Below are positions 1 through 18,862 of a stretch of 64,000 nucleotides of DNA, piece after piece. The first letter of the stretch is position 1, and each line of letters starts with the position of its first letter. This DNA comes from Novosphingobium olei (GTDB taxonomy: Bacteria > Pseudomonadota > Alphaproteobacteria > Sphingomonadales > Sphingomonadaceae). The DNA is taken from NCBI RefSeq assembly GCF_012927405.1, contig NZ_JABBGM010000006.1, positions 186,001-250,000 of the forward strand. Direction: 5' to 3'. The notes under the pieces are model-generated. The model was not told the origin of the DNA and searched no databases. It saw only the letters and a list, made by a program, of their open reading frames with translations. Made by a program: the position numbers and the translations under genes.

Positions 1-540
1 CTGGTCTTCGGGGTAATGCCAGGCACCTTCCGGCATCAGCGAAGCGAGCCGCGTCTTGAGTTCCGCCACGCCGTCGTTGGTCAGCGCCGAAACGAAGAAC
101 ACTTCGTCGAAATTGCCCAGCGGCACCAGCTCTTCCGCCGCAACCAGCAACGGTTCCTTGGGCGTTGCATCCACCTTGTTGAGCACGAGGATCTTGCGCT
201 CGGGGCGGTCTTTCAGGCTCGACAGGATCGGTTCGAGATAATCGCGCTTCTTCTTTCGGGCATCGACCACCAGCAGGATCGCGTCGGCCTCGGCCGCGCC
301 TTCCCAAACCGCGTTGACCATGGCCCGGTCGAGCCGCCTCTTGGGCTCGAACAGGCCGGGCGTGTCGGCAAGGATGATCTGGGTTTCACCTTCGAGCGCG
401 ATGCCCATCAGGCGGGCACGCGTGGTCTGGGCCTTGGCCGAGACGATCGCGACCTTCTGGCCGACGAGCGCGTTCACGAGCGTCGACTTGCCCGCATTCG
501 GGGCACCGATCACGGCGACGAGGCCGCACTTTTCCGTCAC
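1..540 (-). CDS. era: GTPase Era, N-terminal 180 residues (partial)
   Basis: This is the ribosome-associated GTPase of 30S maturation (16S rRNA 3' end). Only the first 180 of roughly 300 residues lie in the window; the C-terminal KH domain is off the left edge. Reading the minus strand from a GTG at 540, the G1 P-loop GAPNAGKST appears at about residues 12-20, a switch I region AQTTRARLMG follows, then G3 DTPGLF and G4 NKVD. The start codon lies inside an 11-bp palindrome, CACGTTACGTG (538-548). It sits 49 bp downstream of rnc, in the usual lepB-rnc-era order, so cotranscription is likely. The G motifs make the identity firm. The GTG start is less certain, because the frame stays open a short way upstream and no strong ribosome binding site is visible. 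Confidence 0.95.
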   Translation of the reverse strand, partial: MTEKCGLVAVIGAPNAGKSTLVNALVGQKVAIVSAKAQTTRARLMGIALEGETQIILADTPGLFEPKRRLDRAMVNAVWEGAAEADAILLVVDARKKKRDYLEPILSSLKDRPERKILVLNKVDATPKEPLLVAAEELVPLGNFDEVFFVSALTNDGVAELKTRLASLMPEGAWHYPEDQ

Positions 541-589
541 GTTACGTGTATTCCGTTCTTTTAGAGGACTTGCTGTGCGCCCGACTATA

Positions 590-1363
590 TCAGCCGAAGC
601 GCTCCATGAACATCCGCGCGGCGGCCGTCTCGGCCTCCTGCTTGCTCGAACCGCGGGCTTCCGCTTCGCCAACGCCGCCGACGCTGACGCGGACGGTGAA
701 CACGGCGGCATGGTCCGGGCCATCCCGGCTCGCCAGCGTGTAGACCGGCGGCTTGCGCCGATTGCCTGCGGCCCATTCCTGCAGCGCCGCCTTGGGGTGC
801 TTGCGCTGCCCCGTGCCGCCGGCCATCGGCTTGGTCCAGGCCTTGCGCACGAACGCCCGCGCCGCATCGAACCCGCGTTCGAGGAAGAGCGCGCCGATCA
901 GCGCTTCCATCACGTCGCCAAGGATATTGTCGCTGTTGGCGCCGCCATCGTCACGCGCCTGCTTGCCCATGCGGATGTGGGGCGGGACGGAAAGGGCGCG
1001 CGCTACGTCGGCGCAGGTTTCGCGGGCCACCAGCGCGTTGAGCCGCTGCGACAGCTTGCCCTCGGCAGCCCCGGTGGTCTCATAAAGCCAATCCGCGATG
1101 ACAAGGCCGAGGACGCGATCGCCCAGGAATTCGAGCCGCTGGTAATCCGAAGCTTCGCCCAGCGAACCGTGCGTTAGCGCGGCATGCCACAGCGCACCGT
1201 TCTGCAGCGGCGCGCCGGTCAGGTCGGTTAGGAATTGCGCCGTCTCGTCGGTCAGGACGGGGGCAGGGGCCTTGCTCAGAATGTGCCCCCGATCCGGTTC
1301 CAGCGCGCGGCGGTGAACCAGGTCCACGGCAGGAACCAGTTGGCACTGCCGTCGGTCGACCAC
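590..1363 (-). CDS. rnc: ribonuclease III
   Basis: This double-stranded-RNA endonuclease processes rRNA precursors and some mRNAs. The RNase III signature YQRLEFLGDRVLGLVIADWL is present, followed by the second acidic site (GDVMEALIGALFLERGFD) and a C-terminal dsRNA-binding domain (KAALQEWAAGN ... GSSKQEAETAAARMF). The first ATG, at 1363, lies deep inside lepB. Conserved sequence appears to begin near LSKAPAPVLTDE, just where lepB ends (1276-1278). No ATG, GTG or TTG occurs in frame there, only ATT-CTG. The true start is therefore either the upstream ATG, a GTG near 1330, or a rare codon giving an overlap with the lepB stop. Coordinates give the longest plausible version (257 aa); the mature protein is probably about 228 residues. 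Confidence 0.93.
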   Translation of the reverse strand: MVDRRQCQLVPAVDLVHRRALEPDRGHILSKAPAPVLTDETAQFLTDLTGAPLQNGALWHAALTHGSLGEASDYQRLEFLGDRVLGLVIADWLYETTGAAEGKLSQRLNALVARETCADVARALSVPPHIRMGKQARDDGGANSDNILGDVMEALIGALFLERGFDAARAFVRKAWTKPMAGGTGQRKHPKAALQEWAAGNRRKPPVYTLASRDGPDHAAVFTVRVSVGGVGEAEARGSSKQEAETAAARMFMERFG

Positions 1364-2157
1364 ATCACGATCGTTGCACGACCGACCAGGTTGTCCTGCG
1401 GCACCATGCCGATCCCTGCGCCTTCGACCGCCGGAAAACGGCTGTCCATCGAATTGTCGCGGTTATCGCCCATCAGGAACAGGTGGCCTGCAGGCACCAC
1501 GACGGGCGGCGTATCGTCCTGCGGGCGATAGCCGAGGTCGAGCACGTTGTAGCTCTTGCCCTCGGGCAGCGTCTCGCGGAACTGCGGATAGTGGCAACTG
1601 GCCGAACCGTCCTGCTCCAGCGCCTCGAATTCGGGGGCGACGCAGTTGGTGTTGGCCGAAACCGGGATCACGAAGTCCGCGATCTTTTCCTTCTTCACCG
1701 GCTTGCCGTTGATGTTGAGCACGCCGCCGATCATCTGGATCGTGTCGCCCGGCAGGCCGATCACGCGCTTGATGTAGTCGACGTCGTTGCCGGGAGGCGC
1801 CTTGAAGATCACCACGTCGCCGCGATTGGGCTGGCTGGCGAAGATGCGCTTGGGCAGCAGCGGCGCGCTGAACGGCAGGGAGTAGCTCGAATAGCCAAAT
1901 GGCCACTTGGCAGCGAGCAGATAATCCCCGTTCTCAAGCCGTGGCAACATCGATTCGGACGGGATGTTGAACGGCGAGAAGATGAAGCTGCGGAAGATCG
2001 CGACCACCAGCACCAGCTTGATCAGGAAGACGGGAAAGCTGTCCTCCTTCTTCTCGTTCCGCGTTTTCGGGGTTTTTGAGCCGCCTTGCGGCTGTGCCGG
2101 TGCGGCGATCCCTTCGACGGGGGCATTTTCGGGCTGATCGGTCATCGTCGCGGTCAT
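1276..2157 (-). CDS. lepB: signal peptidase I
   Basis: This inner-membrane protease removes signal peptides from exported proteins. It is 293 aa. A disordered N-terminus is followed by a membrane segment (VFLIKLVLVVAIFRSFIF, about residues 43-60). The catalytic serine box is PSESMLPRLENGDYLL and the catalytic lysine box is YIKRVIGLPGD. The C-terminal box GDNRDNSMDSR is intact. It is the first gene of the minus-strand lepB-rnc-era group and is divergent from pgi across a 158-bp gap. A second in-frame ATG four codons downstream could also serve as the start. Confidence 0.96.
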   Translation of the reverse strand: MTATMTDQPENAPVEGIAAPAQPQGGSKTPKTRNEKKEDSFPVFLIKLVLVVAIFRSFIFSPFNIPSESMLPRLENGDYLLAAKWPFGYSSYSLPFSAPLLPKRIFASQPNRGDVVIFKAPPGNDVDYIKRVIGLPGDTIQMIGGVLNINGKPVKKEKIADFVIPVSANTNCVAPEFEALEQDGSASCHYPQFRETLPEGKSYNVLDLGYRPQDDTPPVVVPAGHLFLMGDNRDNSMDSRFPAVEGAGIGMVPQDNLVGRATIVMWSTDGSANWFLPWTWFTAARWNRIGGTF

Positions 2158-2315
2158 GTGGAGGGGCCTTGCCTACGTCAAGCGGGATTTCGCGCTTCGA
2201 GTGCTGGCAAAATACGATTTCGCACAGGGACGATCGACCAACAGCAGTGCTTGGCGGACGAAGCTCAAGCGGGCATTGAGGCGGTGCATATCGCAGTTGC
2301 GAAAGGATCAGACGA

Positions 2316-3836
2316 ATGGCGGACCCGGCACAAGCGCTCTGGAGCGAGCTCGAAAGCCTCGAAACGCCAAGCCTTTCCGCGCTCTTCGAGGGGCAGGACC
2401 GGCTTGCCCGCTACTGTTCGGAGCTGGAAATTCCCGGCGGCCCGATTCGCTTCGATTGGAGCAAGACCCACCTGACCCCGGCCGTTGAGGATGTCCTCGG
2501 CCGTATCGCGGGTGCAATGGACCTCGATGGCAAGCGCGATGCGCTGTTCGCGGGCGAGGCGATCAACAACACCGAAGGCCGAGCCGCCCAGCACAGCGCC
2601 GAGCGCGGCATTGGCGCGCCCACTGCGGTGGTCGAGGCCGAGGCGCTTCACGCCCGGATGAAGGGCCTTGTCGAAGCGATCCACGAAGGCCTGCTGGGAG
2701 AGGTCAAGAGCCTGATCCACATCGGCATCGGCGGATCGGCGCTTGGCCCGGCGCTCGCGATCGACGCGCTTGCCCGTGACGAGGCGAAAGTCGCCATCCA
2801 CGTCGTCTCCAACATCGACGGCTGCGCGCTTGAAGCGGCGATGAAGCAGTGCGATCCCGCCACGACCATGGTGGCGGTGGCGTCGAAGACCTTCACCACC
2901 ACCGAAACCATGACCAACGCGAACTCGGCGCTCGACTGGCTGCGCCAAGGTGGAGTCTCCGATCCCTACGGCCGCGTCGTCGCGCTGACGGCCAGCCCGG
3001 ACAAGGCGGTTGAATGGGGCGTCGACGAGACCCGTGTCCTGCCCTTCAGCGAGACGGTGGGCGGTCGCTACTCCCTGTGGTCGTCGATAGGATTTCCGGT
3101 CGCACTGGCGCTGGGCTGGGATGCCTTCGCCGAATTCCTCGATGGCGCCGCGGCGATCGACACGCACTTCATCGAGGCGCCGTACGATGCCAACGTCGTC
3201 GTGCGCGCGGCCTTTGCTGATCTCTATTACACGCAGGCCAAGGGTCGCCAGACCCGCGCGGTCTTCGCTTATGACGAACGGCTTGCACTGCTGCCCGACT
3301 ATCTCCAGCAGCTCGAGATGGAATCGAACGGCAAGCGCGTTACGGCACAAGGTGAACCGCTCACCCGGCCGTCCGCGCCGATCACCTGGGGCGGCGTCGG
3401 CACCGATGCCCAGCACGCGGTGTTCCAGCTGCTGCATCAGGGCACGCACCTGATCCCGGTCGATTTCCTCGCGGTGAAGGTGCCCGGCCACGATCTCGAC
3501 CCGCTCCACCACCAGATTTTGCTGTCGAACTGCTTCGCCCAAGGGGCCGCGCTGATGGCGGGCAAGGCTTCGGACGATGGCGCGCGGGCCTATCCGGGGA
3601 ACCGTCCTTCGGCCACGATCCTGTGCGACGACCTCACGCCGGGCACGCTGGGGGCGCTGATCGCGTTCCACGAGCATCGCACCTTCGTTTCGGCGATGCT
3701 GCTGGGAATCAATCCGTTCGACCAGTTCGGCGTCGAACTGGGCAAGGCGATCGCCAAGCAGATCGATGCGGGCGGAGGCGAGGGCTTCGATCCTTCGACC
3801 GAGGCGCTGCTCGCCGCAGCCGGCATCGGCGCGTAA
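2316..3836 (+). CDS. pgi: glucose-6-phosphate isomerase
   Basis: It interconverts glucose 6-phosphate and fructose 6-phosphate in the cytoplasm. It is 506 aa, near the normal family size. The phosphosugar-binding stretch GIGGSALGPALA, PGI signature 1 (GGRYSLWSSIGFP) and signature 2 (PFDQFGVELGK) are all present and intact. An HNH-type gene begins 4 bp after the TAA stop, so the two are likely cotranscribed. The stop codon is embedded in one copy of the CGTWACG motif (3832-3838) that is enriched in this part of the window, and another copy lies inside the gene (3338). Confidence 0.97.
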   Translation: MADPAQALWSELESLETPSLSALFEGQDRLARYCSELEIPGGPIRFDWSKTHLTPAVEDVLGRIAGAMDLDGKRDALFAGEAINNTEGRAAQHSAERGIGAPTAVVEAEALHARMKGLVEAIHEGLLGEVKSLIHIGIGGSALGPALAIDALARDEAKVAIHVVSNIDGCALEAAMKQCDPATTMVAVASKTFTTTETMTNANSALDWLRQGGVSDPYGRVVALTASPDKAVEWGVDETRVLPFSETVGGRYSLWSSIGFPVALALGWDAFAEFLDGAAAIDTHFIEAPYDANVVVRAAFADLYYTQAKGRQTRAVFAYDERLALLPDYLQQLEMESNGKRVTAQGEPLTRPSAPITWGGVGTDAQHAVFQLLHQGTHLIPVDFLAVKVPGHDLDPLHHQILLSNCFAQGAALMAGKASDDGARAYPGNRPSATILCDDLTPGTLGALIAFHEHRTFVSAMLLGINPFDQFGVELGKAIAKQIDAGGGEGFDPSTEALLAAAGIGA

Positions 3837-3840
3837 CGTT

Positions 3841-4173: not shown

Positions 4174-4250
4174 ATCAGGGCGCCATCGGCCTTTGGGGCT
4201 CTTGGCAACGCAACGTGCGCCCACAATATGCGCACGTACTGGAGGATTGC

Positions 4251-5609
4251 ATGGCCGAGCAGGAATACGACTACGATCTTTTCGTCATCGGCGCGGGTTC
4301 GGGCGGGGTACGGGCAAGCCGCATCGCTTCCTCGCACGGCGCACGCGTGGCGGTGGCGGAGGAGTATCGCGTCGGCGGCACCTGCGTGATCCGTGGCTGC
4401 GTGCCCAAGAAGCTGCTGGTCTACGGCTCGCACTTCGCCGAAGAACTGCAGGACGCGGCCAACTATGGCTGGACGGTCGATAAGATGAACTTCGACTGGC
4501 CCACGCTGCGCGATGCGGTGAATAAGGACGTCGACCGGCTCAACGCCGCGTACACCTCCACGCTCGAGAACAACAAGGTCGAACGCTTCCTCGAACGCGC
4601 GACTATCACCGGCCCGCATTCGGTGAAACTGGCCGACAGCGGGCGCGAGATCACGGCGAAATACATCCTTGTCGCCACCGGCGCCTGGCCCGTCACCCCC
4701 ACCTTCGAGGGTGCCGAGCACTGCATCACGTCGAACGAGGTGTTCCATCTGCCCGAACTGCCGCGCAAGGTCATTATTGCCGGCGCTGGCTACATCGCGC
4801 TCGAATTCGCGGGGATTTTCAATGCGCTCGGCAGTCACGTAACGGTCGTCAACCGAAGCGAGACGCTCCTGCGCGGCTATGACGAAACGCTGCGCGACCG
4901 CCTGCTCCAGATCACCATGGCACGCGGCATCGAATACAAGTTCAACTGCCCGTTCGAAAAGGTTGTGAAGCGCGAGGACGGCTGCATGGAAGCCTACCTG
5001 AAGAACCAGCCCGATCCGATCGTCGCGGACGTGATCCTCGTTGCCACCGGCCGCAAGCCCAAGGTCGAAGGGCTGGGCCTGGAAAACGCCGGGGTGGAGC
5101 TTGGCGAGCGCGGCGAGATCAAGGTCGACGAGCACAACCGCACCAGCTGCGACAGCATCTATGCGGTGGGTGACGTAACGGACCGCGTCCAGCTCACCCC
5201 CGTCGCCATCCGCGAAGGCCAGGCGTTTGCCGACCGCGTGTTCGGCGGGATCGAGCGCAAGGTCGACTACGACTGCATCCCGAGCGCAGTGTTCTCGCAG
5301 CCGCCACTTGCGGCCGTAGGGCTTACTGAGGGCCAGGCCCGCAATCGGTACGGCAACGTGAAGGTCTATTCCTCGGACTTCCGCCCGATGAAGAACGTCT
5401 TCGGGCACCGGCCTGAGCGCGGCCTGTACAAGATGGTCGTCGATGCCAACACCGACAAGGTGCTCGGCATCCACATGATCGGTCCTGAGGCGCCCGAAAT
5501 CCTCCAGGCGGCCGCCGTGGCGGTAAAGGCCGGGCTGACCAAGGCCGCGTTTGACGATACGGTCGCCCTGCATCCTTCCATGGCCGAGGAACTGGTCCTC
5601 CTCAAATAA
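4251..5609 (+). CDS. gor: glutathione-disulfide reductase
   Basis: This FAD and NADPH enzyme keeps cytoplasmic glutathione reduced. It is 452 aa. The N-terminal FAD motif GAGSGGVRAS is followed by the redox-active disulfide GTCVIRGCVPKK (about residues 41-52). An NAD(P)-binding motif GAGYIALEFAG and the late FAD motif YAVGDVTDR follow, and the C-terminal His-Glu segment HPSMAEELV is intact. The ATG at 4251 is preceded by a clear GGAGG (about 4240-4245), so it is preferred over an ATG 36 bp upstream. Its product would also supply glutathione for the formaldehyde pathway genes at the right end of the window. Confidence 0.95.
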   Translation: MAEQEYDYDLFVIGAGSGGVRASRIASSHGARVAVAEEYRVGGTCVIRGCVPKKLLVYGSHFAEELQDAANYGWTVDKMNFDWPTLRDAVNKDVDRLNAAYTSTLENNKVERFLERATITGPHSVKLADSGREITAKYILVATGAWPVTPTFEGAEHCITSNEVFHLPELPRKVIIAGAGYIALEFAGIFNALGSHVTVVNRSETLLRGYDETLRDRLLQITMARGIEYKFNCPFEKVVKREDGCMEAYLKNQPDPIVADVILVATGRKPKVEGLGLENAGVELGERGEIKVDEHNRTSCDSIYAVGDVTDRVQLTPVAIREGQAFADRVFGGIERKVDYDCIPSAVFSQPPLAAVGLTEGQARNRYGNVKVYSSDFRPMKNVFGHRPERGLYKMVVDANTDKVLGIHMIGPEAPEILQAAAVAVKAGLTKAAFDDTVALHPSMAEELVLLK

Positions 5610-5626: not shown

Positions 5627-5673
5627 TATATGTTAGTCTCCCTCGCAACGACACTTGTGGGGGAGACGGTCGC

Positions 5674-6396
5674 TTGGATCTCAACGGAAAACTCGTGCTG
5701 CTGACTGGCGGCACCGACGGAATTGGGCTGCGCCTCGCGCGGCAATTGCGCGAAAAAGGCGCGCAGGTTGTCGTTACGGGACGCACGCCCGAACGGATCG
5801 CGGCGGCGCAGGCCGAGGGCTTCGAGGTCCTTGCCGCCGATCTCGCCACCTCCGAAGGCGTCACTGGCCTGCTCGCTGCGGTGGCCGGACGCCCTATCGA
5901 CGTCCTCGTCAACAACGCCGGTATGGGCACGCCGCACGACTATCGGGTCGCGACACCCGATGCGCAGGCTGACGAACGCACGCTGCAGCTCAACGTCCAT
6001 GCCCCGATCCGGCTGATCGCTGGGCTGATCGAACCGCTCAAGGCCCGTCCCGAAGCGATGATCGTCAATGTTACCTCTGGCCTCGCCATCGCACCCAACA
6101 CCGCCAGCGCGATCTATTGCGCCACCAAAGCCGCCTTGCGCAGCTACACCATGTCCTTGCGCAAGCAACTTGAGGCCACACGCATTCACGTGCTCGAGGT
6201 CCTGCCACCGGTGGTCGAAACGGCGATGACCGCGGACCTCGCCATGAAGAAGCTCGCGCCCGAGGCCTGCGCTGCCGAGATCGTGCGGGCGATGGAACGT
6301 AACGCCGATGAAGCCAACGTCGGGCAGGTGAAGTTCCTGCGCCGCGTCTATTCGCTCTCGCCGGCGCTCGCACGCCGCATCATGCTCGCCTTCTGA
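5674..6396 (+). CDS. short-chain dehydrogenase/reductase (DltE-like)
   Basis: A classical SDR of 240 aa when started at TTG 5674, which lies 8 bp after a GGGGGAG ribosome binding site. The first residues then read LDLNGKLVLLTGG, which matches SDR N-termini. It shows the cofactor motif TGGTDGIGLRLA, the NNAG motif (NNAGMG), and the catalytic YCATK with a preceding Ser (TSGLAI). The substrate is unknown. The gene is 13 bp upstream of an extended-SDR gene, and the two probably form one operon. Some annotators would extend it upstream to an ATG at 5551 that overlaps gor; the ribosome binding site argues against that. Confidence 0.85.
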   Translation: MDLNGKLVLLTGGTDGIGLRLARQLREKGAQVVVTGRTPERIAAAQAEGFEVLAADLATSEGVTGLLAAVAGRPIDVLVNNAGMGTPHDYRVATPDAQADERTLQLNVHAPIRLIAGLIEPLKARPEAMIVNVTSGLAIAPNTASAIYCATKAALRSYTMSLRKQLEATRIHVLEVLPPVVETAMTADLAMKKLAPEACAAEIVRAMERNADEANVGQVKFLRRVYSLSPALARRIMLAF

Positions 6397-6409: not shown

Positions 6410-7438
6410 ATGACCCAGACCGTGCTCGTCACCGGAGGCAGCGGCTACATCGCCGGCTTCCTGATCCGCCAGCTGCTCGATGCCGGCTGGACCGTCCACA
6501 CCACCGTGCGCAGCCTGTCGCGCGAAGCCGAATTGCGGCTGGTCCTGGGCGGAACCAAGGAAACGCTGCGGTTTTTCGCCGCGGACCTGACTTCGGACGC
6601 CGGGTGGGACGATGCGGCCGCCGGGTGTACGCATGTTGCACATGTCGCCTCGCCGTTCCCGCTGCATGTCCCGAAGGATCCCGAGGAACTCGTCGGCCCG
6701 GCCCGTGATGGTGCCCTGCGGGCCCTGTGCGCGGCGAAGAAGGCGGGCGTGAAGCGCTTCGTCCAGACGTCCTCGTTCGCCGCAGTCGGCTACGGGCACC
6801 CGGCCGGGCGTTACGTTGCGGGCCAGGTCTTCACCGAGGCTGACTGGACCGACCTCTCGAACCCCAATGTCGCCCCCTACATGCGCAGCAAGACCGTCGC
6901 CGAACGCGCCGCGCGCGACTGGATCGCCGCGGAGGGCGAAGGGATGGAGTACGTTTCGGTCAATCCGGTCGCCGTACTGGGGCCGGTGACCAACGGCGAC
7001 CTTTCGACCTCGATCGAACTGGTCAAGCAGCTGCTCGAAGGCGCGATCCCCGCGCTTCCCGACGTCGGTTTCGGCATCGTCGACGTGCGTGACGTTGCGG
7101 ACCTGCACGTGCGCGCGCTGAACCAGCCGGGCCTCAACGGCGAACGCTTCCTCGCCACCGGCCCGTTTCTGACCTTTGCGGAGATCGCCGCGGTCCTGAA
7201 ACGCCGCTTGGGGCACGAGGCGCGCAAGGTGCCCACCCGGCGGTTGCCGGACTTCGTGGTCAAGATCGGGGCTCTGTTCAGCCCATCGCTCAAGCAGATC
7301 GCCGGCGAACTCGGCAAAGTCCGCGCAGGCACGTCCGCGCATGCCCAGCAGCGCGTCGGCTGGACGCTGCACCCGGTCGAGGAGACCATCGTCGACACGG
7401 CGCGCAGCCTGATCGACCTCAAGATCGTGAAGGTGTGA
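6410..7438 (+). CDS. NAD-dependent epimerase/dehydratase family (dihydroflavonol-reductase-like)
   Basis: An extended SDR of 342 aa. The N-terminal NAD(P) motif is VTGGSGYIAGFLIRQLL, the active-site region has YMRSKTVAE (YxxxK), and VSVNPVAVLGP is characteristic of the anthocyanidin/dihydroflavonol reductase-like branch. Bacterial members reduce aldehydes or ketones of varied origin, so no substrate is assigned. The ATG at 6410 follows an AAGGGAG ribosome binding site. The stop is followed at once by a CGTTACG copy (7439) and then by the convergent molybdopterin reductase gene. Confidence 0.87.
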   Translation: MTQTVLVTGGSGYIAGFLIRQLLDAGWTVHTTVRSLSREAELRLVLGGTKETLRFFAADLTSDAGWDDAAAGCTHVAHVASPFPLHVPKDPEELVGPARDGALRALCAAKKAGVKRFVQTSSFAAVGYGHPAGRYVAGQVFTEADWTDLSNPNVAPYMRSKTVAERAARDWIAAEGEGMEYVSVNPVAVLGPVTNGDLSTSIELVKQLLEGAIPALPDVGFGIVDVRDVADLHVRALNQPGLNGERFLATGPFLTFAEIAAVLKRRLGHEARKVPTRRLPDFVVKIGALFSPSLKQIAGELGKVRAGTSAHAQQRVGWTLHPVEETIVDTARSLIDLKIVKV

Positions 7439-7453
7439 CGTTACGCCGGGACT

Positions 7454-8203
7454 TCAGATCCCGGCATACCACTGGTAGCCCTTACGGTCTTCCCAGTAGC
7501 CGCCACCACCGCCGTGGATGCCGGCAAGGCTGGCCACCGCCTGCACGCGCATGACGTACTTCGCCTGCTTGTAGCCCAGCTGCCGCTCGACCCGCAGCCG
7601 CAACGGCGCGCCGTGGCCGACCGACAGCGGTTGTCGGTTCATGTGGTGCGCCAGGATCGTCTGGGGATGGAACGCCTCGACCAGGTCGATGCTCTCGTAA
7701 TAGGGCGTGCCGTGGTAATCGTCGGCGCAGTGGAACACCACGTAACGGGCGTTCGACGATAACGCCGCCGCCTTGAGCAGCAGCATCAGCGGCACCCCGG
7801 TCCATTCGCCGATCGCGCTCCAGCCCTCGACGCAATCGTGGCGGGTGATCTGCGTGCGCGCCGGCATCGCCTGCAGTTGCGCCAGGCTGAGCGAAAGCGG
7901 GCGCGCCACCATTCCATCCACGACGAGGCGCCAGTCGGCAAAGCCGCGTGCCACGTGCGCCTGATAGGCCGCGTCGCCGGGGGCGGTGGTGCCGTTAACG
8001 CAGAAGTTGGGCGAAAGATCGGTTGCGGAGAACTCGGGCGCCAGCGCGGTGCGGTCCGTTACGAGACGCTGCCCGCTCATCGTGGCCTTTTCGCCCAGCG
8101 TCAGCACCTTCCTGACCGTGGGCGAGGCGACGATGCGATCGCACCCCGCCAGCATCAGCCCGGCGCCGCCGACCAGCGCATTGCGGCGGGTGACGATCGT
8201 CAT
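7454..8203 (-). CDS. molybdopterin-dependent oxidoreductase, MsrP/YedY-like
   Basis: This is a 249-aa catalytic subunit of the sulfite-oxidase/YedY fold. It begins with a Tat-like signal (TRRNALVGGAGLMLAGC), which could also act as a lipobox. The Mo-ligand cysteine is seen in HDCVEGWSAIGEW, and a pterin-binding Arg/His segment (APLRLRVERQLGYKQAKYV) follows. Known YedY/MsrP enzymes repair oxidised methionine in periplasmic proteins. This protein is shorter than E. coli MsrP (334 aa) and could act on another substrate. Its start overlaps the stop of the cytochrome b gene by ATGA, so the two are translationally coupled. Confidence 0.85.
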   Translation of the reverse strand: MTIVTRRNALVGGAGLMLAGCDRIVASPTVRKVLTLGEKATMSGQRLVTDRTALAPEFSATDLSPNFCVNGTTAPGDAAYQAHVARGFADWRLVVDGMVARPLSLSLAQLQAMPARTQITRHDCVEGWSAIGEWTGVPLMLLLKAAALSSNARYVVFHCADDYHGTPYYESIDLVEAFHPQTILAHHMNRQPLSVGHGAPLRLRVERQLGYKQAKYVMRVQAVASLAGIHGGGGGYWEDRKGYQWYAGI

Positions 8204-8925: not shown

Positions 8926-8990
8926 CGCCTGTCTCCCGTCGTCCGGGGCGGAAGATGCCACGTAACGGCCGAGCGGCCTAGCCCGAAAGC

Positions 8991-10686: not shown

Positions 10687-11661
10687 TCAAGGAAGCGGCA
10701 CGCCCTGTTTGCTGGCATAGGCAATCAGGTCGCTCCGGGTGTGGCGCCGGGCATCGGCACCCTTGTGGCACGATCGCGGAACCGGGCGCAGCGCCCGCAA
10801 GCCGGCCCGCGCGATCCACTGCAGCTTGCGGCCGTTACTCACGACGGTGCGGCTGTCCCACGCGCTCGTGCCGCGTCGCTCCACCTCGCGCGCGATCTCG
10901 CCATAAATGCCCGCCGCGGCAAGGATCGCCCAGCGCTGGCGCGGCTGCAGGCGCCCGGCGCCGATCCGGGCCGAACACTCGTGCGCGTGGGCCATGCGGC
11001 ACATCCGCTGGGCCAACTTGGCCATCGCCCTACGGTGCATCGGCTTCATCTGTTCGCCGGGCGGAATGTCCACTTCGGCAAGCCATTCCAGCGGTACGTA
11101 ACAGCGCTGGGCCGCATCGTCCTCGGCCAGATCGCGCGAAATGTTGGCCAGCTGGAAGGCAAGCCCAAGGTCGCAGGCGCGGTCGAGCGTGTCCTCGTCC
11201 GCGGGCGATACGCCCATCACCACCGCCATCATCACGCCCACCGCGCCGGCGACGTGCCAGCAGTATCGCATCAGGTCGGCTTCGCTGCGCGGCTGCCAGT
11301 CGGCGGCGTCGAGAGCAAAGCCGTCGATCACCGCACCCGCCATTTCGAGCGTCAGCCCGGTCTCGCGCGCGACGAGGCCGAGTGCATCGAACGCCGGGTC
11401 CCCGCTGGGCTTGCCGGCAAAGGCCAGCGCGGTCCTGTCGCGCACCGCTGCCAGCCGTTCCGTAACGCCGACGGCGCTTCCCAGCGCGCCGCCATGATCC
11501 TGATCGTCGATCAGGTCGTCGCAGCGCCGGCACCAGGCGTAGAGCAGCCAGACCCGCTCGCGCGTCTCCCGGTCGAACAGCGCGCTGGCCGCGGCGAAGC
11601 TTTTCGAGCCCTTGCGGATCGAATCGCGCGCTGCGGCGACAAGGGTACTTCGATCTTCCAT
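10687..11661 (-). CDS. crtB: 15-cis-phytoene synthase
   Basis: It condenses two geranylgeranyl diphosphates to phytoene, the first committed carotenoid step. It is 324 aa. The first Asp-rich motif is DDLIDDQDH (about residues 48-56) and the second is [19 protein letters not shown]. It is the last gene of the minus-strand crtY-crtI-LOG-crtB group, starting 11 bp after the LOG-family stop. A CGTAACG copy lies inside the gene at 11461, read out of frame with the Val-Thr version seen in other genes. Confidence 0.95.
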
Positions 11662-11672
11662 CTGCGCCGACG

Positions 11673-12254
11673 TTACAGGTCGTCTGGCGTCATCGCAAAG
11701 ATCGGCCGGTGCGGCTTGTGCGCCGCCATGCGGGCAAGCAGCACGTCGATCTCGGGCTCGGCGATCAGGATGCCCACATGGGCCTCGCGCACGAAGCCCA
11801 CGTCGATCATCCGGCGGTTGAATGCCAGCAAATCGTCATAGAAGCCGAAGGCGTTCAGCAGACCAACCGGCTTGGCGTGATAGCCGAGCTGCGCCCAGCT
11901 GACTGCCTCCCACAACTCGTCCATCGTACCGACCCCGCCGGGCAGGGTCAGGAATCCGTCCGAAAGGTCGGTGAACGCCTGCTTGCGCTGGTGCATGTTG
12001 GCCACCACGTGCAGTTCGGTGCAATCGTGGTTGGCGACTTCGGCATTGGCCAGCGCTTCGGGGATCACCCCGATAACCTCGCCACCGGCTTCCAGCGCGC
12101 CAGCGGCGACAGCGCCCATCAATCCCAGCCTGCCGCCGCCATAAACCACGCCGATCCCGCGCGTGGCGAGCGTCTGGCCCACCTCGCGCGCCAGCGCAAC
12201 GTAACGCGGATCGGCGGGCGAGGCGGAGCCGCAATAGACGGCGATGCGTTTCAC
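11673..12254 (-). CDS. LOG-family phosphoribohydrolase (TIGR00730-like)
   Basis: This 193-aa Rossmann-fold protein begins VKRIAVYCGSASP from a GTG at 12254 whose GTGA overlaps the crtI stop. It has GGGRLGLMGAVAAGAL and the family signature PGGVGTMDELWEAVSW. Characterised LOG proteins release cytokinin bases from nucleoside 5'-monophosphates; most bacterial members are unproven for that role and may hydrolyse AMP or other nucleotides. Its position between crtI and crtB, with overlaps on that side and an 11-bp gap on the other, places it firmly in the carotenoid operon. An open frame continuing upstream into crtI is not credible as coding. Confidence 0.9.
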   Translation of the reverse strand: MKRIAVYCGSASPADPRYVALAREVGQTLATRGIGVVYGGGRLGLMGAVAAGALEAGGEVIGVIPEALANAEVANHDCTELHVVANMHQRKQAFTDLSDGFLTLPGGVGTMDELWEAVSWAQLGYHAKPVGLLNAFGFYDDLLAFNRRMIDVGFVREAHVGILIAEPEIDVLLARMAAHKPHRPIFAMTPDDL

Positions 12255-13729
12255 AAGAGGTCCTCTAGCATGATCTTGGCTGTCGCCTTGGCGCTGCCGA
12301 CGACACCAGGAATCCCGGCGCCCGGATGGGTTCCCGCACCCACCAGGTACAGGTTCGGGATCTGGTCGTCGCGGTTGTGCGCCCGGAACCACGCGCTCTG
12401 CGTCAGCAGTGGCTCAAGGCTGAAAGCGCTGCCCAGGTGCGCCGAAAGGTCGGTGGCGAAGTCGCTGGGTGCGTAGTGGAACTTCGTTACGATACGGCTG
12501 TGGATGTCTGGGATCAGCCGGCGGCCCACCTCGTCCAGGATGCGCTTTTCCAGCATCGGGCCGATTTCGTCCCAATCCACCGGCAGCTTGCCCATGTTGG
12601 CAACGGGCACCAGCGCATAGAACGTGCTCATGCCTTCGGGCGCCATCGACGGATCGGTCACCGTTGGATGGTGCAGGTAGATCGAGAAGTCCTCGGGCAG
12701 CACGCCGTGGCTGTAGATGTCGTCGAGCAGGCCCTTGTAGCGCGGGCCGAACAGGATCATGTGGTGCGGGATGCCCGGCCAGGTGCCCTCGATACCGAAG
12801 TGCACGACGAACAGGCTGGGCGAAAACTTCTTGCGCTTCAGAGACTTCGCCTGTCGTGCCGCATGCGTGTTGCCTTCGAGCAGGTCGCGATAGGTGTGCA
12901 TCAGATCGCCGTTTGATGCGATCGCGTCGAAGCTGCCCTGCCAGCCGCTCCTGGTCTCGAGGCCCGTCACGCGGTTACCCAGCGAATGGATCTTCGTCAC
13001 CGCATCGCCGAGCCGCACCGTACCGCCGAGCCGCTCGAAGTGGCGAACCATCGCATCGATCAAGCGGTTGGTGCCGCCCTTGGCCCACCACACCCCGCCA
13101 TCCTTTTCCAGCTTGTGGATCAGCGCGTAGATCGAACTTGTCTTCATCGGGTTGCCGCCGACCAGCAGCGTGTGGAAGCTGAACGCCTCGCGAAGCTTTT
13201 CGCTCTCGATGTACTTGGACACCATCGAATAGACCGAGCGCCACGCCTGGTACTTGGCGAGCGCGGGGGCGGCCTTGATCATGCTGGCGAAATCGAGGAA
13301 CGGCACCGAGCCGAGCTTGACGTACCCTTCCTCGAAGACTCCTGCCGAATAATCGAGGAACGCGTCGTAACCTGCTACGTCGCGTGGATTAATTTTGGCA
13401 ATCTCGTTGCGCAGGCCGGTTTCGTCGTTCGAGTAGTCGAAGTTCGTCCCGTCCGCCCAGTTCAGCCGGTAGAACGGCATCACCGGCATCAGTTCGATGT
13501 CGTCCTCCATCCTGTGGCCCTTGAGCGCCCACAGCTCCTGCAGGCACGGCGGATCGGTGATGACGGTGGGGCCGGCATCGAAGGTGAAGCCGTCGCGTTC
13601 CCAGAAATAGGCGCGTCCGCCCGGCTTGTCGCGGGCTTCGACCACCGTGGTCTCGATCCCGGCGGACTGCAGCCGGATGGCGAGCGCAAGCCCGCCGAAC
13701 CCTGCACCGATCACGCAGGCCTTCTTCAT
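12251..13729 (-). CDS. crtI: phytoene desaturase
   Basis: This FAD enzyme introduces double bonds into phytoene on the way to lycopene. It is 492 aa. The N-terminal dinucleotide motif is GAGFGGLALAIRLQ, followed by the desaturase segments DKPGGRAYFWERDGFTFDAG and the C-terminal signature GTHPGAGIPGVVGSAKA. The ATG at 13729 has GAAGGGA seven bases upstream. Another in-frame ATG at 13744 would overlap the crtY stop as ATGA and is also possible, adding five residues. CGTWACG occurs once inside the gene (12485). Confidence 0.96.
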   Translation of the reverse strand: MKKACVIGAGFGGLALAIRLQSAGIETTVVEARDKPGGRAYFWERDGFTFDAGPTVITDPPCLQELWALKGHRMEDDIELMPVMPFYRLNWADGTNFDYSNDETGLRNEIAKINPRDVAGYDAFLDYSAGVFEEGYVKLGSVPFLDFASMIKAAPALAKYQAWRSVYSMVSKYIESEKLREAFSFHTLLVGGNPMKTSSIYALIHKLEKDGGVWWAKGGTNRLIDAMVRHFERLGGTVRLGDAVTKIHSLGNRVTGLETRSGWQGSFDAIASNGDLMHTYRDLLEGNTHAARQAKSLKRKKFSPSLFVVHFGIEGTWPGIPHHMILFGPRYKGLLDDIYSHGVLPEDFSIYLHHPTVTDPSMAPEGMSTFYALVPVANMGKLPVDWDEIGPMLEKRILDEVGRRLIPDIHSRIVTKFHYAPSDFATDLSAHLGSAFSLEPLLTQSAWFRAHNRDDQIPNLYLVGAGTHPGAGIPGVVGSAKATAKIMLEDLL

Positions 13730-13740
13730 CGTTGGTCCCT

Positions 13741-14940
13741 TCATTTGGTCCGTGTACCGGCGAGCGAGAGCGCCTGGGGCTTTTCCCCGAACCCGCCGAG
13801 CACGCGCATCGCGGCAAGGACGGGGACGGGGGGCTTGCCGGAAAGAATGCGGATCTTGTCGCGCAGCGTGGTGCGCCCGGCGTAGAACCGTTCGACCAGC
13901 CGCTCGTCCAGCCGGTAGAAGCGTTCCAGCACCCTGTAGCGATCCATCGGTGCGGCAGCGCCGAACAGCATGGCGGTCAGCTGCCGCAGGAAAATCGACT
14001 TCTTCCAGTGCTTTCGAGCATATTGCTCGGAATACTTGGCGAGTTCATCCCCGCTGCAGTCGGCGCGCCGTGCGATCGCCATGGCATAGCGCACGGCATC
14101 GGGCACCGAATAGCTGGTCACGGCATGGAACAGTCCCGCGCGGGTGCCGGCGCGGGCGGTATCCTTGCCGGTCGATCGCCAGAATGCGTCGAAATCGCCG
14201 CCCGAGACCACGGGCAGCACGCCCTGTTCTTCGTGCACCACGCTGTCCACACTCCAGCCGCGCCGCCGGGCATATTCGGCGATGCGCCCGGCAAGTGCGT
14301 CCCGGTCGATCGTCGCGCTGTCGGAATAGTAGGTGTCTTCGACGAAGACTTCGTCCTCGCTGAACGGCAGGACATAGACGAACCGGTAGCCATCGAGCTG
14401 CTCGACCGTCGCGTCCATGATCACCGGCCGTTCGATCCCGTGCGGCGCTTTCAACTTCAGGCGTTGTCCCAGAAACTTCTGCCAACCACCTGTCAGATGG
14501 CCAAGATTGCGGATACCACGCGCGTCGATCACCGCGCGTGCCTCGATCCGCTGCCCATCTGTCAGCGTCGCGCTCGTTGCGCTCGTTGCCAGCACCCGCG
14601 CTTCCGACAGGATCGCTTGCGCCGGCAGGGCGGCGCGGATGGTCCGGTCGAACCGGTCCGAGGTCATCGCGTAATAGCTCGTGCCGAGCGTGCGCTCGAA
14701 AGCCGGAAAGCGCACCTCGTACCCCGCCCAGGCTGCCGCCACCGCGGGGCCGAGCAGCTCGCGCCCCGCCTTGCCGACGTCGCTGCCGAAGAACGACCAC
14801 ACGTGATTGCCGCCAAGCCGCGCGTCCTGCTCGACCAGCAACAGCGAAAGGTCCGGCCGATGGCGGGCCAGCGCCAGCGCGATCAGGCCGCCGGCAAGGC
14901 CTCCGCCGAGGATGGCGATGTCACAATGCCGCGCACTCAT
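13741..14940 (-). CDS. crtY: lycopene beta-cyclase
   Basis: It forms beta-rings on lycopene, giving gamma- then beta-carotene. It is 399 aa. The N-terminal nucleotide motif is ILGGGLAGGLIALALA, and the C-terminal region LTAMLFGAAAPMDRYRVLER followed by FYRLDERLVERFYAGR is typical of the CrtY type. The ATG at 14940 (MSARHCDIAIL) was taken because conserved sequence starts there. It is the first gene of the crt operon; the 144 bp between it and the divergent DUF2585 gene should hold both promoters. No crtZ, crtW or glycosyltransferase gene is seen, so hydroxylation must be encoded elsewhere. Confidence 0.94.
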   Translation of the reverse strand: MSARHCDIAILGGGLAGGLIALALARHRPDLSLLLVEQDARLGGNHVWSFFGSDVGKAGRELLGPAVAAAWAGYEVRFPAFERTLGTSYYAMTSDRFDRTIRAALPAQAILSEARVLATSATSATLTDGQRIEARAVIDARGIRNLGHLTGGWQKFLGQRLKLKAPHGIERPVIMDATVEQLDGYRFVYVLPFSEDEVFVEDTYYSDSATIDRDALAGRIAEYARRRGWSVDSVVHEEQGVLPVVSGGDFDAFWRSTGKDTARAGTRAGLFHAVTSYSVPDAVRYAMAIARRADCSGDELAKYSEQYARKHWKKSIFLRQLTAMLFGAAAPMDRYRVLERFYRLDERLVERFYAGRTTLRDKIRILSGKPPVPVLAAMRVLGGFGEKPQALSLAGTRTK

Positions 14941-15084: not shown

Positions 15085-15687
15085 ATGATCGCCGGGAGCA
15101 CCGCAACGTTACGACCCGACCGGCGGGGCGCGATCGCCGCTTTGGTGGTCGCTCTGCTGGTCGTCGCGATCCTGCTCGCGATGCATCGCCCGCCGATCTG
15201 CCCCTGCGGCAGGATCCATCTGTGGGCAGGGCAGGTGCAATCGGCCGAGAACAGCCAGCAACTATCCGATTGGTACAGCTTCAGCCACCTGATCCACGGC
15301 ATGCTTTTCTACGGCGCGGCGCACCTGCTCTGGCGCCGGAGCGGCCTTGGCCGCTTCATCAGCCCGCGCTGGGTGCTGGCCTGTGCCGTCGCCATCGAAG
15401 GTGGGTGGGAACTGCTGGAAAACTCGCCGATCGTCATCGATCGCTACCGTGCCGTAACGGTGAGCTACGGCTACAGCGGCGACAGCGTGCTCAATTCGGC
15501 GTCCGACATCGCCTGCATGGTGCTGGGCTTCCTGTTCGCCGCCCAGGTGCCCGCCCGCGTCACCGTGGCAGTCGCGCTTGCCTTCGAGCTGTTCACGCTC
15601 GCCATGATCCGCGACAATCTTACGCTCAACGTGCTGATGCTGGCCTGGCCGATCGAAGCGGTGCGCCACTGGCAGGCGGCGGCCTGA
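15085..15687 (+). CDS. DUF2585 (UPF0314) membrane protein
   Basis: This 200-aa protein has several hydrophobic spans, including AALVVALLVVAILLAMHR near the N-terminus and later segments around DIACMVLGFLFAA and LTLNVLMLAWPIEAV. The stretches HGMLFYGAAHLL and EGGWELLENSP are typical of the alphaproteobacterial UPF0314/DUF2585 family, whose function is unknown. The ATG at 15085 follows GGGGGAGG. It is divergent from crtY and is not obviously linked to carotenoid synthesis. Two CGTWACG copies lie close by (15107 and 15453), both inside the coding sequence. Confidence 0.85.
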   Translation: MIAGSTATLRPDRRGAIAALVVALLVVAILLAMHRPPICPCGRIHLWAGQVQSAENSQQLSDWYSFSHLIHGMLFYGAAHLLWRRSGLGRFISPRWVLACAVAIEGGWELLENSPIVIDRYRAVTVSYGYSGDSVLNSASDIACMVLGFLFAAQVPARVTVAVALAFELFTLAMIRDNLTLNVLMLAWPIEAVRHWQAAA

Positions 15688-15827
15688 AACGGTTCATCCG
15701 GCCTTTTTTAGTCGATCAACGAAAAGCCCTGCCGAATCCGGTTTCGATTTGATATTGGTCAAGGCGTCCTAGCCGCGGAAGACGGCAGAACGACGCTATC
15801 AAGCGATAATCGAGTGGAGAGAGCGAC

Positions 15828-17363
15828 ATGGCACAAGCGGACGCATCAGGTGAAAGGGCCCAGCATTTCGACGTGCTGATCGTCGGCGCCGGCATTTCCG
15901 GGATCGGTTCGGCCTACCACCTGCAGGATCAGTGCCCCGGCAAGACCTACGCCGTGCTCGAAAGGATGCACACCTTCGGTGGCACGTGGGAAACCCACAA
16001 GTACCCGGGCGTCCGTTCCGACTCCGATCTCTACACTTTCGGTTACCGCTTCAAGCCGTGGACCGACGCGCCGATCGCCAGCGCACAGGCGATCCTCGAC
16101 TACATGGGCGAAGTGATCGAGGAAAACGGCATCGACCAGCACATCCGCTATGGCCACACGATTACCGGCTGTTCCTGGTCGAGCGAGCGCAACCTGTGGA
16201 CCGTTACGGCACGGACCGAAGACGGCAAGACCCACGTCTTCACCGCCACGCTGCTGTGGATGTGTCAGGGCTATTACGACCATGAAACGCCGTACATTCC
16301 GCCCGAATGGACGGCGAAGAACCTCGGTGCCTACAAGGGCCAGTTCATCCACGCCCAGCTGTGGGACCCGAACATCGATTACACGGGCAAGCGCATCGTC
16401 GTGATCGGCTCGGGCGCCACGGCCGCTACCGTCGTCCCCGCCTTTGCGGAAAAGGCGGCGCAGGTCACCGTGGTGCAGCGTTCGCCCACCTACTTCTTCT
16501 GCCATCCCAACCAGAACGAGCTGGCCGACCGGCTGCGCGAGATCGGGGTGGACGAACCGACCATCCACCGCATCGTCCGCATGCAGGTGATGCATGACCA
16601 GGCGGTGATGGATAAGCGTTGCGTCGAGGAGCCCGACGTCGTCGTCGAGGAACTGCGCGCGCTGGTCCGCGCCTATGTCGGCGAGGATTTCCAGTTCGAA
16701 CCGCACTTCACGCCCAAGTACCGCCCGTGGCAGCAGCGCCTGGCGTTCTGCCCCGATGCCGACCTGTTCCAGCTAGCCGCGCAGGGCAAGGTGTCGATGG
16801 TCACGGACACGATCGACCACTTCACCGAAACCGGCCTTGTCGTCAGCTCGGGCGAGGCGGTGGATGGCGACATCATCGTCGCCTGCACCGGCTTCAACCT
16901 GAAGGTCCTGGGCGACATCCCGTTCGAGGTCGATGGCCAGAAGGTCAACTGGGGCGATACCGTTACGTATCGCGGCATGATGTTCACCGGCGTGCCCAAC
17001 ATGCTGTGGGTGTTCGGCTACTTCCGCGCCTCGTGGACCCTGCGCGTCGACATGCTGGGCGATTTCGTGTGCCGCATGCTCAAGCACATGGACGAACGCG
17101 GCGCCCGCAAGATCGAGGTGAAACTGCGGCCAGAGGACAAGGACATGGAAATCCTCCCCTGGATCGAGACCGAGAACTTCAACCCGAACTACCTGATCCG
17201 CGATCTCGACAAGCTGCCCAAGCGCGGCGACAACGAAGTATGGCGCCACAACCAGAACTACTGGGCCGAAAAGGACGCGATTCCGGCGATCGACCTCGAT
17301 GGACCCGAATTCTGGTACGACAACCAGCCCGCCGCGGCCGAGGTGCTCGAAGCAGCCGAATAA
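15828..17363 (+). CDS. flavin-containing Baeyer-Villiger-type monooxygenase
   Basis: This 511-aa FAD/NADPH monooxygenase has the FAD motif VGAGISGIGSAYHL, then FGGTWETHKYPGVRSDSDLY, which is characteristic of Baeyer-Villiger enzymes. A YKGQFIHAQLWD segment follows; it matches the FxGxxxHxxxW fingerprint with Tyr for Phe. The second dinucleotide motif is VIGSGATAATV. Such enzymes turn ketones into esters or lactones, often on steroids, terpenes or cyclic ketones; the substrate here is unknown. A strong bidirectional hairpin separates it from the convergent FMO-like gene. Confidence 0.9.
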   Translation: MAQADASGERAQHFDVLIVGAGISGIGSAYHLQDQCPGKTYAVLERMHTFGGTWETHKYPGVRSDSDLYTFGYRFKPWTDAPIASAQAILDYMGEVIEENGIDQHIRYGHTITGCSWSSERNLWTVTARTEDGKTHVFTATLLWMCQGYYDHETPYIPPEWTAKNLGAYKGQFIHAQLWDPNIDYTGKRIVVIGSGATAATVVPAFAEKAAQVTVVQRSPTYFFCHPNQNELADRLREIGVDEPTIHRIVRMQVMHDQAVMDKRCVEEPDVVVEELRALVRAYVGEDFQFEPHFTPKYRPWQQRLAFCPDADLFQLAAQGKVSMVTDTIDHFTETGLVVSSGEAVDGDIIVACTGFNLKVLGDIPFEVDGQKVNWGDTVTYRGMMFTGVPNMLWVFGYFRASWTLRVDMLGDFVCRMLKHMDERGARKIEVKLRPEDKDMEILPWIETENFNPNYLIRDLDKLPKRGDNEVWRHNQNYWAEKDAIPAIDLDGPEFWYDNQPAAAEVLEAAE

Positions 17364-17382
17364 CCGTCACGTTACGACGCTG

Positions 17383-17417
17383 AAAAGGGGGCGGGCCGCA
17401 AGGCTCGCCCCCTTTTT
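17383..17417. terminator. bidirectional rho-independent terminator
   Basis: GGGGGCGGGCC-GCAA-GGCTCGCCCCC has one G-T wobble in an 11-bp stem, flanked by AAAA on the left and TTTTT on the right. It lies between two convergent monooxygenase genes and can terminate both. Confidence 0.9.
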
Positions 17418-17460
17418 CGTGGCGCCTGGCCCCTTCCGCTGCGGGAAGGGGCTGCGCTCG

Positions 17461-18828
17461 TCAGGCCGCTTCCGCCAGCGTAGCCCTTGCGGGGACGGGC
17501 AGGGCATTGCCCTTGGCCGCCGCCCGCTTCGCGCCGCGTTCCAGTTCCTTCTTGAGCGCGCGGACGTAGTGATCGAAGTCCAGCTGGATGGTGTGCCGGC
17601 GCGCCTGGTAATAGCTGCCGGTGTAGAATTCCTCGTCCGCCTTGATCACCTGGTGCATCTCGTCGGCGGGCGGCGGCGCGTATTGCCCCGCGAGGTAGGC
17701 TGCGACCAGCTTTGACTGCTGCTCCGCAAAGTTGACCAGCGTCGGCAGCGGCTGTGCCAGCCCCATGTAGAACAGGTCCGGCACCTCGGGCTTCATGATC
17801 CGCTTGTACAGCGCGGGCGGTCGGTTGTCGGAATCGGCGCAGAACGAAGGCTCGTCGAAGAACGGGAATTTGATGTCATAGCCCGTGGCCCAGACGATTA
17901 CGTCGATCTCTTCGCGCGTGCCGTCGGTGAATACCACCCCATTGCCATCCAGCCGCTCGATGCCGGGGCGCATCACGATGTCGCCCGATCCCGCGCGGAG
18001 CAGGAATTCACCGGAAACGGTGCCGTGGCTTTCGAACGGTTCGATCTCTGGCTCGGGCAGGCCATAGTCGCTCATCCGGCCGACGAGCTTCTTGATCATC
18101 CGCGAACCCAGCCACTGGCGAAGGCCCTTGGGCATCCACGCCGGAGCGGGGTTCTTGTCGAGCGGCTGCCCGCGATAGTACTTGGGGAAGATCCACACGC
18201 CGCGCCGCGCCGAAACGTAGAGGCGCTTCGCCATCGGCCGCTGCGAAAGTTCGCTCGCGATATCCATCGCGCTGTTGCCAAGGCCGACGACCAGCACCTT
18301 CTTGCCGATGCAGTTCACCGGCTCGAACGGGGTGCGGTAATGGTGCGAATGGATCTGCGCGCCGTCGAATTGGCCGGGATATTCGGGAATGCGCGCCGCC
18401 CAGTGATGGCCATTCGCCACCACCAGCGCGTCGTAACGTAACGTCTCTCCGGTCGACAGGGTTACCTCCCAACCGCCGCCCGAAAGCCGCTTTGCCTTCT
18501 CCACCCTGGTATTGAAGCGGATCGACGGGCGCAGGCCGAAATGGTCCACGTAGTCGTGGAAGTACTGCAGCAGCTGCGCGTGATGGGGATAGTCCGGCCA
18601 GTCGGCGGGCACGGGATAGTCCTCGAACGCCAGCCGCCACTTCGAGGTGTCGATGTGCAGGCTCTGGTAGCAGGACGAAACCCCGTTGGGGTTGTTGTAG
18701 TACCAGTTGCCGCCGATGTCGTCAGACGCTTCGTAGATGTCGAACGGAATGCCATAGTCCTTGAGCCGCTTGGCGGTGGTGAAGCCGGAACACCCGGCGC
18801 CGATGATGCACACTTTCGGCAGGCTCAT
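17461..18828 (-). CDS. FMO-like flavin monooxygenase
   Basis: This 455-aa flavoprotein has the FAD motif IIGAGCSGFTTAKRL, then IGGNWYYNNPNG. The flavin-monooxygenase fingerprint FDGAQIHSHHY (FxGxxxHxxxY) and a second nucleotide motif VVGLGNSAMDIASEL follow. A WATGYDIKFPFFDEP segment is typical of the late FMO region. The family oxygenates N, S or carbonyl carbon. It starts 34 bp downstream of the P450 gene on the same strand, so the two are likely cotranscribed. Overlapping CGTAACG copies occur inside it (18432 and 18437), and one lies in the gap to the P450 (18843). Confidence 0.9.
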   Translation of the reverse strand: MSLPKVCIIGAGCSGFTTAKRLKDYGIPFDIYEASDDIGGNWYYNNPNGVSSCYQSLHIDTSKWRLAFEDYPVPADWPDYPHHAQLLQYFHDYVDHFGLRPSIRFNTRVEKAKRLSGGGWEVTLSTGETLRYDALVVANGHHWAARIPEYPGQFDGAQIHSHHYRTPFEPVNCIGKKVLVVGLGNSAMDIASELSQRPMAKRLYVSARRGVWIFPKYYRGQPLDKNPAPAWMPKGLRQWLGSRMIKKLVGRMSDYGLPEPEIEPFESHGTVSGEFLLRAGSGDIVMRPGIERLDGNGVVFTDGTREEIDVIVWATGYDIKFPFFDEPSFCADSDNRPPALYKRIMKPEVPDLFYMGLAQPLPTLVNFAEQQSKLVAAYLAGQYAPPPADEMHQVIKADEEFYTGSYYQARRHTIQLDFDHYVRALKKELERGAKRAAAKGNALPVPARATLAEAA

Positions 18829-18862
18829 GGCCGCAAATCTCCCGTAACGTTATGGCTGGTTG

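Follow-up and report, generated by a model that had tools for sequence, protein, structure and literature searches.

Why should a seven-base word that is rare in the genome of Novosphingobium olei be crowded into one run of ordinary genes? The question is raised by a stretch of 64,000 nucleotides from contig NZ_JABBGM010000006.1 of this organism (hereafter the window; G000:C41:186001-250000), in the left part of which an earlier note on the same DNA had remarked 24 copies of CGTWACG, with two more to the right. Direct counting confirmed all 26 positions, 24 of them at 540-18849 and the others at 27557 and 49713, against a mean of 4.79 (standard deviation 2.22, maximum 11) when the window was shuffled 100 times with its dinucleotides preserved. 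The whole genome holds 241 copies in 4,683,467 bases, compared with 1149 of the reversed pattern; the word is globally rare and locally dense, and the array in the window is about 25-fold denser than the genome average.

Extent of the array and structure of its motif

Most of the sites are intragenic, lying in coding sequence and not at promoters, and the excess persists when synonymous codons are shuffled. Using the longest non-overlapping open reading frames (ORFs), an imperfect set with some frames on the wrong strand, we found 20 coding copies in C41:180-206 kb (about -6 to +20 kb of the window) against 3.03 expected (standard deviation 1.57, maximum 8 in 300 shuffles), as opposed to 8 against 4.8, 2 against 3.9 and 0 against 2.6 in the flanking stretches. 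The array does not start at 540, as had been supposed: the 41 copies in C41:86001-268893 leave the part before 126.8 kb empty and comprise 14 at 126.8-185.1 kb (from C41:126,836 to 185,111, left of the window), the 24 of the window array and three scattered after it. Its right edge, at 18,849, is abrupt, and the DNA beyond is at background level rather than depleted.

CGTWACG is itself part of a longer unit, the 12-bp pseudo-palindrome CGTNACGTWACG, whose letters can be read as the half-sites CGTNAC and GTWACG. Relative to the rest of the contig read, C41:181-205 kb is enriched in CGTAACG (28 against 1.0), CGTN6ACG (40 against 9.9) and CGTNNCGT (50 against 17.5). With up to two mismatches the window yields 85 matches to CGTNACGTWACG where 23.3 are expected, one place often being counted on both strands. 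A profile of 215 sites in a single orientation, 25 of them contributed by two genomes that lack a dense array, reads CGTNA-CGTAACG. The balanced orientation to which the earlier note had given weight carries little information, because the CGTWACG pattern is its own reverse complement (forward and reverse counts in the genome are both 241).

Restriction of the array to one Novosphingobium clade

Within Novosphingobium, one clade has the array at this same locus, topA...rnc-lepB-pgi-gor...thiC. A PGI tree unites the array loci with a support of 0.998 in a group of 24 tips, of which 22 have the array and the other two are truncated loci. Among 80 named loci around PGI, 12 of the closest 14 (L007-L020, 78-85% identity) carry 8-15 sites; the two with none are L013, whose contig stops soon past gor, and L015, which spans 3.3 kb. 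The 66 more distant PGI loci have 0-5 sites each and no dense array. Further array genomes were added from whole-genome stretches (G070, G014, G094, G003, G084, G028, G047, G077 and G011), and three contigs proved identical to others in the set (L008 to G098, L017 to G091 and L007 to G009).

Across these genomes the array comprises about 8-40 sites over 3-80 kb, and each genome, so far as it was examined, has a single dense one. The densest is that of G014, with 34 sites in 887.4-901.2 kb. A scan for local palindrome clusters returned CGTWACG as the top word in all three array genomes scanned (in G014 with 27 copies within a single 10-kb interval, 2.0 expected), and in four other genomes, three of them scanned around dif, it fell outside the five top clustered palindromic words. 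Exact copies of GTNACGTAACG are likewise gathered within about 5 kb in G094 (four of seven) and G077 (seven of 11), array genomes whose contigs are very large. In the protein tree of gor, the main array clade excludes G014, L011 and L013, all three of which the PGI tree places inside; G014 has gor sites in common with the array clade at aligned positions. G045 was left out of the counts: its gor lies 89 kb from dif with two sites in 4.35 kb, a partial PGI sequence shows 83% identity, and it falls near G014 in the gor tree.

The sites and genes of the window array are as follows; the sites are listed without strand.

540-18849: portion of the CGTWACG array within the window (24 sites at 1.3 per kb), extending left past the window
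540-546: CGTTACG in era, within an exact 12-mer CGTCACGTTACG at 535-546
3338-3344: CGTTACG in pgi
3832-3838: CGTAACG containing the pgi stop codon TAA
4838-4844: CGTAACG in gor, codons CAC-GTA-ACG, clade-conserved, codon column 644
5174-5180: CGTAACG in gor, codons GAC-GTA-ACG, clade-conserved, codon column 980
5772-5778: CGTTACG in a short-chain dehydrogenase gene
6298-6304: CGTAACG in a short-chain dehydrogenase gene
6809-6815: CGTTACG in an epimerase-like gene
7439-7445: CGTTACG immediately past the stop of the epimerase-like gene
7741-7747: CGTAACG in a molybdopterin oxidoreductase gene
8057-8063: CGTTACG in a molybdopterin oxidoreductase gene
8961-8967: CGTAACG in a cytochrome b561 gene
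10246-10252: CGTAACG in hppd
11461-11467: CGTAACG in crtB
12200-12206: CGTAACG in a LOG-family gene, first of a 285-bp pair whose spacing recurs in relatives
12485-12491: CGTTACG in crtI, other member of the 285-bp pair
15107-15113: CGTTACG between crtY and FMO1
15453-15459: CGTAACG between crtY and FMO1
16202-16208: CGTTACG in FMO1
16961-16967: CGTTACG in FMO1
17370-17376: CGTTACG just past FMO1, 6 bases after the stop, within an exact 12-mer CGTCACGTTACG at 17365-17376
18432-18443: two overlapping sites in FMO2, forming an exact 12-mer CGTAACGTAACG
18843-18849: last site, CGTAACG, between FMO2 and P450, at the right edge of the array
590-2157, minus strand: rnc and lepB, within the array yet with no site in 22 of 22 array genomes
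4215-5609, plus strand: gor (our own label; in Pfam terms a pyridine nucleotide-disulphide oxidoreductase), the gene with the highest site density (55 in 30.2 kb across 22 genomes)
10687-13744, minus strand: crtB, LOG-family gene and crtI, part of the array core
23846-25723, plus strand: thiC, a syntenic marker past the array edge

Few copies sit at stop codons, contrary to an earlier impression: those at 3832, 7439 and 17370. Counting over the 22 distinct array genomes, with those in which a gene was found as its denominator, sites occur in gor in 20 of 22, in the LOG gene in 17 of 17 (20 sites), in the molybdopterin gene in 15 of 21 (23 sites), in crtB in 11 of 17 (19 sites), in topA in 13 of 22 (26 sites), in pgi in 7 of 22 (12 sites) and in era in 3 of 22. 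Besides rnc and lepB, dprA (0/20) and hemA (0/9) are free of sites, as are P450 (0/4) and PepSY and TonB (0/5) past the edge. We rejected the idea that crt genes always accompany the array: crtB is found at the locus in 17 of the 22 array genomes and in none of 11 array-free loci read, and there are four exceptions, G084, L018, L019 and L020, which have 10-15 sites and lack crtB over the 4-5 kb that was read on the far side of the cytochrome gene (L012 ends first).

The right edge had also been suspected of marking horizontally acquired DNA. This was rejected because synteny runs through the edge in the sister genome G070, where P450, PepSY, TonB and thiC follow at 93-98% identity, and the GC content does not change across it. 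Further right, at window positions 26000-64000, the proteins of about C41:212-251 kb have no match of at least 50% identity in the stretches of G014 and G009 that were read; judged from this comparison, the segment is probably accessory DNA, with its start about 7 kb beyond the right edge of the array. A second small focus, with sites 297-300 bp apart, was observed in two species (G000:C41:162423-163026 and G047:C11:495068-495371), about 28 kb past gor on the side away from the terminus.

Selection on DNA within coding sequence

In its codons gor offers a clear case of core genes retaining rare codons for a DNA-level signal. At codon column 644 of the alignment the site-forming GTA-ACG spells the same Val-Thr in 18 of 22 array rows and in none of 42 others; at column 980 it is found in 18 of 22 against 1 of 42 (G096), the preceding Gly being GGT in 19 of 22 against 5 of 42; and at column 310 Leu is TTA in 13 of 22 array rows against none of 42, one of these with a gap. 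As L008 and G098 are the same contig, the distinct array counts for columns 644, 980 and 310 are 17, 17 and 12 of 21; the 42 rows are those used of 43, L017 having been dropped as an array row, and include L011 and L013, though PGI places these in the array clade. Both codons are rare: across 14 genes of the window, GTA accounts for 24 of 454 Val codons and TTA for 2 of 534 Leu codons, and at the same positions array-free relatives mostly have GTG or GTC and CTG or TTG. Since the rare spelling recurs at the same gor residues and almost never outside the array species, selection acts on DNA rather than protein, as the earlier note had held.

A check that the note had set, conservation at aligned positions in sister species, came out in favour of the motif: in the sister genome 21 of 25 aligned sites persist, as do 43 of 78 control palindromes. 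Over 19 comparisons with composition-matched palindromes, which include two duplicate contigs (G009/L007 and G091/L017), retention was above control in 15, equal in two (L007 and L020) and below in two (G009 and L011). Density is regional and individual sites turn over. G009 has no site in gor and eight in crtB-LOG-crtI, which suggests that the region rather than each site is maintained.

Position relative to the replication terminus

An E. coli-type dif, allowing up to three mismatches, had no match in 10 genomes. The polarity flip was then used to derive a Novosphingobium dif, which has matches in 72 of 99 genomes and none for the reversed control; several genomes have two or three matches, not each of which is the chromosomal dif, the extra ones probably lying on secondary replicons. 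The match coincides with the flip in GGGNAGGG polarity in all seven genomes read on both sides (G014, G094, G047, G028, G095, G057 and G043). In the four array genomes with a placed dif the array is terminus-proximal, at 9-35 kb (G047), 63-77 kb (G014), 105-113 kb (G094) and 269-274 kb (G028), and in each the dense part lies on one side of dif. The opposite side has no sites in 40 kb in G047, one in 44 kb in G014 and a thin scatter of seven in 67 kb in G094, around whose dif there are 0-2 sites per 10 kb. The 3.74-Mb contig of G094 has ParB at 3.686 Mb, opposite dif at 1.767 Mb. In G000 the right end of C41 points to the terminus and the array is at least 64 kb from that end; the sole dif match, with three mismatches, is on another contig (C42:113). 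The GC content falls to about 0.60 at the right end of C41 (L006, C41:250001-268893), toward the presumed terminus.

Comparison with known systems

MatP (PF06303) was found in none of 15 Novosphingobium genomes, the E. coli control being positive, and the matS consensus, GTGACRNYGTCAC, has no copy in the window at up to one mismatch. The MatP/matS system of the E. coli Ter macrodomain offers a likeness in form, namely palindromic sites of 12-13 bp in ordinary DNA near the terminus, and by analogy the sites described here could gather a terminus-organising protein. They differ in layout. The matS sites lie on both sides of dif, as opposed to the single, one-sided locus seen here; their number is given as 23 copies over 800 kb in PMC3330122.

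ParB is represented in each of 20 genomes by one high scorer (185-205 bits) and weaker homologues, and, compared by score, its range is equal in array and array-free genomes. ParB/parS and Noc likewise involve palindromic site clusters of a chromosome-organising protein, and parS has a central ACGT as CGTNACGTWACG does; the sequence is otherwise different, exact parS is absent from C41:86-269 kb, and the array is not origin-proximal in G094. KOPS and DNA uptake sequences are also short overrepresented words. Unlike KOPS, CGTWACG is non-polar, and unlike uptake sequences, to which the array had earlier been likened, it is not overrepresented genome-wide, being dense at one locus.

All nine array genomes compared (only array genomes were compared) have a MerR_1 match within 0.2 kb of an ihfA match, a gene pair of the zapT kind; MerR dimers usually need longer operators. 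ZapT itself (PMC7188993, PMC7858052) is a terminus-binding MerR-family protein of another alphaproteobacterium, Caulobacter, for which PMC7188993 reports 10 chromatin immunoprecipitation peaks and no consensus motif, unlike the precise motif found here. Mycobacteriophage stoperators are many scattered binding sites that stop transcription, and the sequence bound by their repressor is called asymmetric in PMC9283540; they belong to a phage genome, unlike the pseudo-palindromes in core chromosomal genes described here, for which no repressor was found. The CGTWACG heptamers and six longer forms do not occur as words in the literature searched, and none of the matches listed for MatP with Novosphingobium, or Sphingomonadales with ter, describes such an array.

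Isolated copies elsewhere

An isolated CGTAACGTTACG in G027, G015 and G080 (by eye in ubiE) was set aside as unrelated because it encodes RNVT and is constrained by the protein; the copies in G009, G072, G068 and G058 may be the same ubiE case. At L126:4365-7142 (G050:C132) four CGTTACGTAACG-type sites lie in about 480 bp of apparently intergenic DNA, flanked by a small LuxR-type helix-turn-helix ORF with a hydrophobic C-terminal stretch and by a TacA-like antitoxin ORF; this looks like an ordinary operator cluster, and neither ORF, considered as a source of the binder, has a homologue in the other loci compared. G087:C3 has ParB-type genes and two tandem pairs of exact CGTTACGTAACG, spaced 35 bp within each pair, at 27137-27183 and 314085-314131, a possible plasmid partition or control site. 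Four CGTWACG copies, their spacing shared by two species, occur at L091 (G027:C1:1798065-1798992) and L125 (G015:C26:218463-219390), near genes that by eye are a sigma-54 activator and recF.

Possible functions of the array

We tentatively propose, at somewhat less than even confidence, that the array is a compact set of binding sites through which a putative protein acts on the chromosome near the terminus. Sequence-specific and probably dimeric, this protein would recognise CGTNAC/GTWACG, many bound copies would form a nucleoprotein complex, and this complex would organise or anchor the terminus-proximal chromosome, as MatP on matS or ZapT do elsewhere. The involvement of a protein, its dimeric state and its part in organising or segregating the chromosome, as distinct from regulating genes, are inferences from what was observed. 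Of the options in the earlier note, a site for a nucleoid or division protein thus fares best, with terminus proximity wherever dif could be placed; the binder itself was not found. Several observations weigh against this proposal. The array follows a gene neighbourhood and not a fixed distance from dif (9 to 274 kb), and its dense part lies on one side of dif only, unlike matS. In 14 genomes without a gor array, in three of which the polarity at dif was checked, gor is 53-492 kb from a dif match with 0-2 sites in 3.8-4.4 kb; in G024, for instance, gor is 53 kb from dif and the surrounding 4.4 kb has no site, with five extended sites scattered. There is no dense array around dif in G095, G057 and G043 (11 sites in 140 kb, 7 in 120 kb and 10 in 140 kb). 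As the array follows its neighbourhood and the array-free genomes do not track the terminus, terminus proximity may be inherited synteny. The array proteins scanned, which cover part of the ORFs, include no DNA-binding gene, leaving no candidate binder, and the avoidance of rnc, lepB, hemA and dprA hints at interference with transcription.

This last point leads to the strongest alternative, which we consider rather unlikely: regional transcription control, in which a repressor on many intragenic sites would block or terminate elongation in the manner of stoperators. The density of intragenic sites and the site-free state of these housekeeping genes in or beside the array agree with it; topA and pgi nevertheless carry sites too, the sites span about 80 kb in the window genome, and a pseudo-palindrome is not the asymmetric sequence described in PMC9283540. 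It is improbable that the sites are operators of an ordinary oxidative-stress or carotenoid regulator (gor, crt) with accumulated extra copies, a reading to which the highest density in gor and the LOG gene and the adjacency of crtB (17/22 against 0/11) lend some appeal. The sites show no promoter concentration and reach topA, pgi, the FMO and cytochrome genes, and we lowered our estimate slightly because of the four array genomes without a nearby crtB. Slightly less can be said for a centromere-like array for partition or condensin loading by a ParB-like clamp, which would suit a single dense array per genome and the central ACGT, with no array-specific ParB apparent by score in the 20 genomes, no exact parS nearby, and ParB opposite the array in G094.

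That the array lacks function and arose by gene conversion, a local bias in mutation, or chance combined with common ancestry, seems very unlikely to us. In its favour, 4 of the 19 comparisons show conservation no higher than control, and the species are not independent because orthologous sites are shared by descent; it sits poorly with the synonymous GTA and TTA retained across many species, unlike array-free relatives, and with retention above the control palindromes in the other 15. A methyltransferase recognition site, suggested earlier, would suit a palindromic word about 7 bp long; it is scarcely credible for one that is dense at a single locus and rare genome-wide. Returning to chromosome organisation, it is possible, if still more tentative in this fuller form, that the clade possesses its own organising system, a compact CGTNACGTWACG array in core-gene codons near the terminus whose putative binder would replace MatP/matS and which is anchored to a gene neighbourhood rather than terminus-wide. 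With a precise motif, a precise locus, and species with and without the array, the binding protein should be directly fishable. The array bears on how the terminus may be organised in alphaproteobacteria without MatP, among which ZapT of Caulobacter is reported without a binding motif (PMC7188993).

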